Origin: Diprion similis
Lineage: Eukaryota; Arthropoda; Insecta; Hymenoptera; Diprionidae
Reading direction: 5' to 3'
Assembly (NCBI RefSeq): GCF_021155765.1
Contig: NC_060108.1
Coordinates: forward strand, 23,647,025 to 23,711,024
DNA length: 64,000 bases
Below, in pieces: positions 46,132-49,100 of this stretch (position 1 is its first letter; each line of letters starts with the position of its first letter). A model generated the notes under the pieces. That model was not told the DNA's origin and searched no databases. It saw only the letters and a list, made by a program, of their open reading frames with translations. The position numbers were made by a program, and so were the translations under genes.

Positions 46132-49100
46132 ATGCCAGCAGAGACGGACATGACGGCGCTTTCCTCTGATCAAGACGATGGGAAAAGTTCCACTATGCTA
46201 GATATGCCTGAAGCTATGAACGACAAAAATTTTCTACGTGAGGAGCGAAGTGTTAACGAGAACCCAGAGAATTTTGAAAACCGATTTTCAAGTGTTGACA
46301 ACCACAACCCAGCCACCAGCACCGTTGACAACCACAACACAGCCACCAGTACCGTTGATGGCGTTGAAAGTGAGGAGACGAAACAGTCCGATAATTCGAT
46401 TAGCAATGCTAAAAGTAAAAAACAAATTACGAGATCTTCGGCAAATGATTATAAACTTAGTCAGAAATTGTTGGTACCTGAACAGTCAGTTAACGACAAA
46501 GATCGCTCAGGTTGTACAGAAATGTCAAGAGATGGGTGGATATCAACCGATGATATTGAACTAACAGACAAATCCACAAACGTTTTAAATGAGAGTAATG
46601 TTTCATCATTAGGACATAAGGAGTTGATAAGACAGCAGTTTTTGTTTCAGGGCTGTGCTCAGAGCCTGCCAAGTGCAAGTTCACTAACTAATTCAGCAGA
46701 AGATGATACTAATGTAGTTTCAGAAATTTCTAATACTGATGTGCCTAGTATTTTTCATGATGTGAATACAGGAATTAGAAAATCTTTGAGTAAAAAGAAA
46801 ATTATCTTGCAACCACAGCCATTTGGTACAGCTGAAAAAGACACGAGTGATGACAGCCAGTTAAATTTAATATCTAGTAAACCAAACTTAGCTAGTATCA
46901 GTGCGATAGAACAATGTAAACAGAATTCAACCCATCACAACGACAGTTTACACAAGAACCACAGCAATTCTCTCGAGTTATTAGTTAGAGAAACCTCTGA
47001 CACTCAAAAACTACCTAGAGAATCAATGCACTTTGCAGAGGATCTCCATTCTCTTCCTCTAAAATTACCTGGAGAGTTTTCAAGCTTTACAGAAGAGTCC
47101 CAAGATCTTTGTCCAAAGATATCTGGGCATTTGGCAGACTGTATAGAAAATTCTGAATGTCCACGTGTGAAAATCCCTGGTGAGCCCATGCAGTTTGAAA
47201 ATAAGGCACTTGAAGCTCCTGAAGCCATAAAAATACCTAAAGAAGTTTTGAGCTTCGTAGAAGAGACTCTAGATCCTTCACTAAAAATACCTGGGGAATC
47301 TGCAGACTTCATACAAAAGCCTGAATCTCCACCTGTGATAATACCTGGAGAGTCAATACTTTTTGAAAATGAGGCAATAGATTCTCTTATACCTGTAATC
47401 ATACCTGGAGAATTTTCGAGTTTCAGGGAAGAATCACAAGAACCTCTTCCAAAAATTTCTTTCGAATCGGCAAACTTTATGAAACAGGCTGAATCTCCAC
47501 CTCTGAAAATATGTGGCAAGTCAATGAGTTTTGAAAATGAGGCACTAAAATTTCCTGTACCTGTAAAAATACCTGGAGAAGATTTGAGCTTTATAGAAGA
47601 GACTCAAGATCCTTCATTAAAAATACCTGGGGAATCAGCAGACTTTATACAAAAGCCTGAATCTCCATCTGTGAAAATACCTGGTGAGTCTACGAGTTTT
47701 CAAGACAATTTGAAAGACTATCCGATGCCTGTAAAAATAAGTGGAGAACTGTTGTGCTCACAAGAAGATTCACAAGATCATCTGCCAGTCAAAATTCCAG
47801 GGGAATCGCCCACCCGACATATAGAACAGGAGTGTTCTTCATCTGTCCAAATAACCGGAGAATTATCAAGAAACACTAGAGAAGATGTATTAGAATCAGA
47901 TAATAGTTTTGATTCCACTGACGGAGCTGCCTCTTTGCCTTTAAGAACTCCTGTGATTACTGCAACCAATGGGAAAAATTCGTTCGATATAGCCTCGAGT
48001 AACGATCAAAAGACAGCGATTACATCCATGAAGCCTTTCAGATTACCAAGCTTACCTAATTTGTTTGAAATACAGGGAGATTCTGCTACACTTTCCGAAT
48101 CATTAAACACTGTTCAGCGACGTCTAGATGAAGCTCGGAATTTTGAGCTTGGTCAGCGGTCTTCAAACAGTAGTGATGGGAGTAATTCAGATACTGAATC
48201 GCAACAAGCTGCTGCATCTCACAATGGGACTAAAAAGGTATTACTTCTTTCTACAACTCTAAAAACTTATAATTATACAAAGTACCGCAAGTCTGTTTCA
48301 TGAGTGGTTGCATCTTCCTATAATCATACCTAGTTTTTTTCTAACAAACAAAAGATGCAGTATTTAATTTTGCTATGAAAAGCTGTAGGTCGATTACTGT
48401 CATTTATATTATGTGCAGTTTAATGCTGCTTGGTAAAGTTATACTTCCCTGAAGCTATTTCTTTGCCAGAAAAATATTGAACGAAGAGTACATAACTATT
48501 CTTTCAGAGATCATATAAGCAAAATGGTGTTGTGTCAAACGACAGTGTGGAGTATTATCAGCTGTGGCGCAGTACTGGTGGTACCCAAGCACCAGAGTTT
48601 CTGTATGAAACCTTGTATCCCAATCCTCCACCACTACCTCCAAGATCAGTGCACAGACCACTGCACAGAACTCATGCATTACCAAGTGTGCCTCCTGAAC
48701 TACCCAAAAGGCATCCTCAAAAACATCCAACACCCTTTCATCCCGAAGATTGTTTTGGTTTTGAAATTGTGGATGTTGATGAAGCCTCAGGATTAAAGGT
48801 ACGTATTTATTGGTCAAATTAAAGCATTCTTTCTACTGAGTGTAAACGTCGTCTCTTGAACTTGTTTTTTTTCAAAGTCTCGCACAGCTGTAACAAAGAG
48901 TATAGCTCTGCTCAGCTCTCCAAGACCGCATAGGCCTCTGTCGAGGCCACTACCCGACTCGGCATTGCTCAATCAATCAGAATGCCCTCCAACGCCGACA
49001 CATCGTCCAAGACCACTCCGTCCTTTACCTATCTGCGCAACTTCAAAAGCATCTGTTTCGTCAGAGGAGCCATTACCGACATGTAAGTGAAATTACTTTT

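Follow-up and report, generated by a model that had tools for sequence, protein, structure and literature searches.

The Drosophila orthologue of HECW1 and HECW2, Hecw (CG42797), combines WW and HECT domains with an extended disordered region and keeps ribonucleoprotein granules liquid, and its partners were identified using the WW domains, not the N-terminal tail, as bait (PMC8446043, in the excerpts available). The same excerpts describe both the fly protein and its worm orthologue as lacking the C2 domain that human HECW1 carries, and a C2 domain is therefore not a defining feature of the invertebrate HECW members. A different precedent is provided by the MELT arrays of KNL1/Spc105, in which a short motif is repeated in a largely disordered protein (excerpts of PMC5371998 and PMC7292645) and docks Bub1:Bub3 after phosphorylation by Mps1 (excerpts of PMC5371998).

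Here we report an analysis of a tandem array of KIPGE repeats encoded at the N-terminus of a predicted HECW-type ubiquitin ligase of Diprion similis, within a window of 64,000 nucleotides, which is the whole stretch of contig NC_060108.1 that was analysed and to which all positions refer. The Diprion model resembles Drosophila Hecw in having WW and HECT domains and no C2 domain, and seems to differ from it in the array, which is not mentioned in the excerpted description of the fly protein (PMC8446043), the two being compared by description only. The HECW1_helix, WW and HECT domains are common to the model and to human HECW1 and HECW2, whereas the C2 domain reported for human HECW1 (excerpts of PMC8446043) was not detected in Diprion. 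With KNL1/Spc105 the array shares a short conserved core repeated many times, here in 16 units with conservation between unit types, but the motif is another one and the proteins are unrelated; the likeness would be one of working and not of membership. A literature search did not find 'KIPGES', although the array may still be described somewhere; HECW2 together with hymenoptera gave no match, and no such array appeared in the titles or abstract openings of the literature on HECW1/HECW2, tandem repeats and disorder. On balance, we lean towards reading the array as an N-terminal tail of Hecw that is acidic, probably disordered and built of multivalent linear motifs.

The predicted Hecw gene

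The reading frame of the array joins the WW, HECW1_helix and HECT coding regions through seven GT-AG introns, with the exon joining derived from sequence, and the joined model comprises eight coding exons on the plus strand, 1589 amino acids and zero internal stops. Coding exon 1 (46132..48237, 702 codons) encodes the N-terminal tail and the array, and ends in a donor, AAG/GTATTA, that is weak as judged by eye. It is followed by exons 2 (48508..48798) and 3 (48878..49082), exon 4 (49245..49801) with the WW domain and HECW1_helix, exons 5 (49892..50229) and 6 (50359..50559), exon 7 (50766..51725) with most of the HECT domain, and exon 8 (51886..51997), which holds the end of the HECT domain, an AHTCFNRL stretch and the stop codon. 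The catalytic Cys of the HECT domain is presumably the one in AHTCFNRL.

Searches of the 1589-aa model against Pfam identified one WW domain (residues 865-894, E 3e-12), HECW1_helix (PF18436, E 1.6e-26, 92.6 bits against a cut-off of 25) and a C-terminal HECT domain (PF00632, E 3.7e-97, residues 1285-1588). A second WW-like stretch, spotted by eye and additional to the single WW listed by Pfam, straddles exons 4 and 5. The one match to PF18436 found in the Diprion genome is the Hecw locus itself. Within the HECT exon, residues 235-319 match the HECW2 chain 43jx (E 4.6e-42); by E-value the best of the 58 solved relatives listed for this exon are NEDD4 HECT domains (1.1e-108), whose chains are longer, and none of the 58 is a full HECW HECT chain. 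Neither a C2 domain nor the HECW N-terminal domain was listed by Pfam for the model at E up to 10, a negative that is limited by the HMMER filters, which discard most matches above E 0.1. By its encoded domains, the gene is a HECW-type E3 ubiquitin ligase, as had been proposed from the letters alone, and its array exon could be spliced to the HECT exons, the exon structure and splicing being predictions from the genomic DNA. A further hidden 5' part of the gene is unlikely, because an in-frame stop lies upstream of the ATG at 46132 and the nearest Pfam-identified upstream gene among those scanned, encoding integrin beta, is on the minus strand (38009-40229).

Layout and duplication history of the array

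The array occupies positions 47008-47904 (protein residues 293-591) and consists of 16 units of 18-20 residues, each opening with KIPGE or a variant of it. A lone C-type unit, C0 (47008..47061, beginning KLPRESMHF), is followed by five ABC blocks, with units starting at 47008, 47062, 47116, 47170, 47230, 47284, 47338, 47398, 47452, 47506, 47566, 47620, 47674, 47734, 47791 and 47848. C0 is 18 residues long and is followed by four rounds of 18, 18 and 20 and by two units of 19; the last unit was closed by hand, at 47904. One block thus amounts to 18+18+20 = 56 residues or 168 nt. In block coordinates that start four codons before the K of the A unit, blocks 1 to 4 lie at 47050..47217, 47218..47385, 47386..47553 and 47554..47721, and block 5, with degenerate units A5, B5 and C5 and length changes of one codon, at 47722..47904. 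Rough consensus sequences are KIPGExLSFxEExQDP for type A and KIPGESxxFENEAL for type C, and F is present in 12 of the 16 units.

The block period was recovered in several ways. Tandem Repeats Finder reported a period of 168 nt with 3.8 copies (score 644), a repeat search found five 59-nt copies spaced exactly 168 nt apart, and nucleotide autocorrelation reached 0.56 at both lag 168 and lag 336, compared with a maximum of 0.34 over 300 base shuffles (lags 20-499). Units of the same type, with labels assigned by position at period three and not by sequence, are more similar than units of different types, both in amino acids (0.43 vs 0.31) and in nucleotides (0.62 vs 0.50), an excess reached in none of 10000 label permutations. 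The sequence-only reading had described about 16 units of 18-20 residues in three types alternating about five times at 47005..47890, with growth by a three-unit block of about 57 residues. The unit count, the types and the block-wise growth stand, the last on the exact 168-nt spacing; the block is 56 residues long, the location is right with the end moved slightly outwards to 47904, and the alternation is amended by the leading C unit and the decay of block 5.

The block duplications have left a silent mark in the Gly codon of the core, which is GGA in all four A units with a retained Gly (A1, A3, A4, A5), GGG in all four such B units (B1, B2, B4, B5), and variable in C units. Of the 54 nucleotide columns compared in blocks 1-4, just 2 fully distinguish the types, and divergence within types is therefore considerable. 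DNA identity among blocks 1-4 is 68.5-81%; block 5 shows 38-42% identity to the others in ungapped register, a figure that is low partly because of its one-codon length changes.

Units B2 and B4 had been singled out as nearly identical, and they agree in all 18 amino acids and in 94% of their DNA. This similarity belongs to a longer tract, in which 82 of 88 bases are identical between block 2 (47258..47345) and block 4 (47594..47681). Over these block positions, 41-128, blocks 2 and 4 are 93.2% identical compared with 67.5% outside, while the other five block pairs range from 64% to 75% both inside and outside. In a permutation test the contrast for pair 2-4 was reached in 17 of 5000 permutations (about 0.02 after correction for six pairs); the corresponding counts were 63 for pair 2-3, in a 19-nt segment, 253 for pair 1-3 and at least 749 for the other three. 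Of the six differences within the tract, three are synonymous and three alter the protein. Because the close match includes silent sites, copying fits the tract better than protein-level selection alone, and the tract is best explained by at least one conversion-like copying event. A super-period of 112 amino acids was considered, since A1 is closest to A3 and B2 equals B4; the copied tract is preferred because B1/B3 and the C units break that pattern. The suggestion of continuing homogenisation is partly supported, by one unusually similar tract; a single event in a single genome does not establish that the process goes on.

A DNA search of the Diprion genome with 856 array bases matched one place, this locus, and an array-type protein query gave five matches, all inside this exon, in searches that score best candidates only, such that weak copies could escape. 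A mobile or satellite origin was rejected on these best-candidate matches, a scope within which missing matches do not establish rarity. Two further features were seen in the same exon. An unrelated tandem repeat at 46294-46358 has a 30-nt period, 2.2 copies and 94% identity, and encodes TVDNHNxATS. A 199-codon open frame runs antisense to the array (47004-47603, minus strand); it is probably incidental, since with units and blocks in multiples of three and one copy free of stops, a long antisense frame tends to arise.

Conservation of the core and the proposed role

We compared the KIPGE and F positions with the flanks in 12 core units, that is, all 16 except C0, A5, B5 and C5. Between types, where unit pairs are related and hence non-independent, the core gave pS 0.65, pN 0.17 and pN/pS 0.27, and the flanks pS 0.56, pN 0.59 and pN/pS 1.06; with all 16 units the ratios were 0.32 and 0.96, respectively. 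In neutral simulations scored on their own best six columns, at four divergences with 1000 runs each, pN was as low in 64, 12, 0 and 0 runs, so that lower-divergence runs can match the conservation, while none did in the third set, whose mean pS was nearest to the observed 0.58. Within types the motif had a pN/pS of 0.42 and the flanks one of 1.01, a contrast that is not significant (5.8% of bootstrap resamples had a difference of zero or above), and the observed motif ratio was hit by 6-27% of neutral runs, depending on divergence. The Pro codon was CCT in 26 of 26 between-type comparisons, and part of the KIPGE conservation may therefore reflect recent shared descent. Taken together, past purifying selection on the amino acids of the KIPGE...F core, while the flanks drifted, is moderately supported by these substitution patterns.

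The composition of the array (299 residues, with 34 Pro, 16 Phe, 1 Tyr and 0 Trp) is acidic, with a pI of 4.47 and a net charge of -0.097 per residue, and its mean hydropathy of 0.447 places it on the charge-hydropathy boundary for disorder (0.448). AlphaFold2 modelling of 330 residues from a single sequence gave a mean pLDDT of 36.5 and assigned a 14-residue helix of low confidence and two strand marks of one residue each, and modelling of one 56-aa block from four rows gave pLDDT 62.8 and pTM 0.14, with nothing returned by DSSP; with one or four sequences, low confidence can reflect disorder or sparse data alike. The disorder prediction proposed earlier was in this way carried out, with low model confidence and a boundary composition as its outcome, and the array is likely to be disordered according to these predictions.

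The sequence shows an approximately 18-codon unit with KIPGE-x-x-x-F in three diverged types, A, B and C, and five tandem repeats of the ABC block, with a tract in blocks 2 and 4 for which later copying is the best explanation. In the reading that we favour, each unit may act as a sticker or bind weakly, anchored by its hydrophobic F, and together the repeats would give avidity toward a putative partner, possibly within ribonucleoprotein granules such as those that fly Hecw regulates, so that the ligase would be concentrated near its substrates. A docking platform or a phase-separating tail, as suggested in the sequence-only reading, is a possible role of the array. We consider improbable a more specific version, which takes KIPGE-x-x-x-F for a linear motif not yet described and the array for an avidity module, tunable by copy number, that steers Hecw to one particular scaffold or condensate, each of the unit types A, B and C being suited to a partner of its own. 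When 27 linear-motif patterns were compared with 2000 composition shuffles of the array, none was significant given their number: the lowest was the USP7-like [PAE]xxS (16 seen, 10.5 expected, count reached in 57 of 2000 shuffles), with SPxxK reached in 151 and the TRAF6-like PxExx in 207, and the LIR-like pattern was seen 0 times against 3.3 expected.

A serious rival, which we consider possible, is near-neutral expansion, driven by unequal exchange and slippage where a disordered region tolerates it, with linker length as the function at most. It would account for flanks at pN/pS of about 1, for the second, unrelated 30-nt repeat in the same exon, for a frame kept by blocks and units that are multiples of three, for the decayed last units and for the non-significant contrast within types, but the between-type conservation of KIPGE...F exceeds the neutral simulation at matched divergence. 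A folded repeat domain, such as a beta-solenoid in which each coil is one unit of 18-20 residues, would fit the regular unit length, the recurrent P-G and the hydrophobic I and F positions. We regard it as quite unlikely: AlphaFold2 found no confident fold, which from one or four sequences is weak negative evidence, and no significant relative was found in Pfam, where PH_FAN (E 0.14, 12.5 bits) stayed below its cut-off of 27, or among PDB sequences, where three rows had E 0.76 to 1.3. These four were taken as chance matches, and the array has no recognised domain in the two collections, in line with the earlier remark that no domain of this form is known in the NEDD4/HECW family. Least credible is a docking array for the phosphatase PP2A-B56, whose docking pattern is LxxIxE: A2 LSFVEE and A4 LSFIEE fit it, and the two strict and five loose matches (two overlapping) all lie in A units, but counts as high arise in 338 (strict) and 376 (loose) of 2000 shuffles, and the match lies off the KIPGE core.

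If a partner does bind the units of the favoured multivalent tail, evolution could tune the ubiquitin ligase through the length of the array; if no partner is bound, the array would be one more repeat in a tolerant tail, and repeat tails of such kind are not unusual. In addition, the duplication of units, blocks and a tract can be read from the array within a single exon.

Other features of the window

In addition to integrin beta, Pfam identified a secretin-family receptor (18473-18826, plus strand), a DUF92 membrane protein (27358-27636, minus strand) and a kinesin motor (57772-58062, plus strand) in the window. A 150-codon open frame at 44945-45397, with no Pfam match at E 0.001, encodes a plausible small protein (MSDTLSSYSGSYVQ...). 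Outside Hecw, a degenerate nested tandem repeat of 26 and 104 nt at 30805-31062 has higher-order structure too, and a perfect (AG)33 microsatellite lies at 11149-11214.
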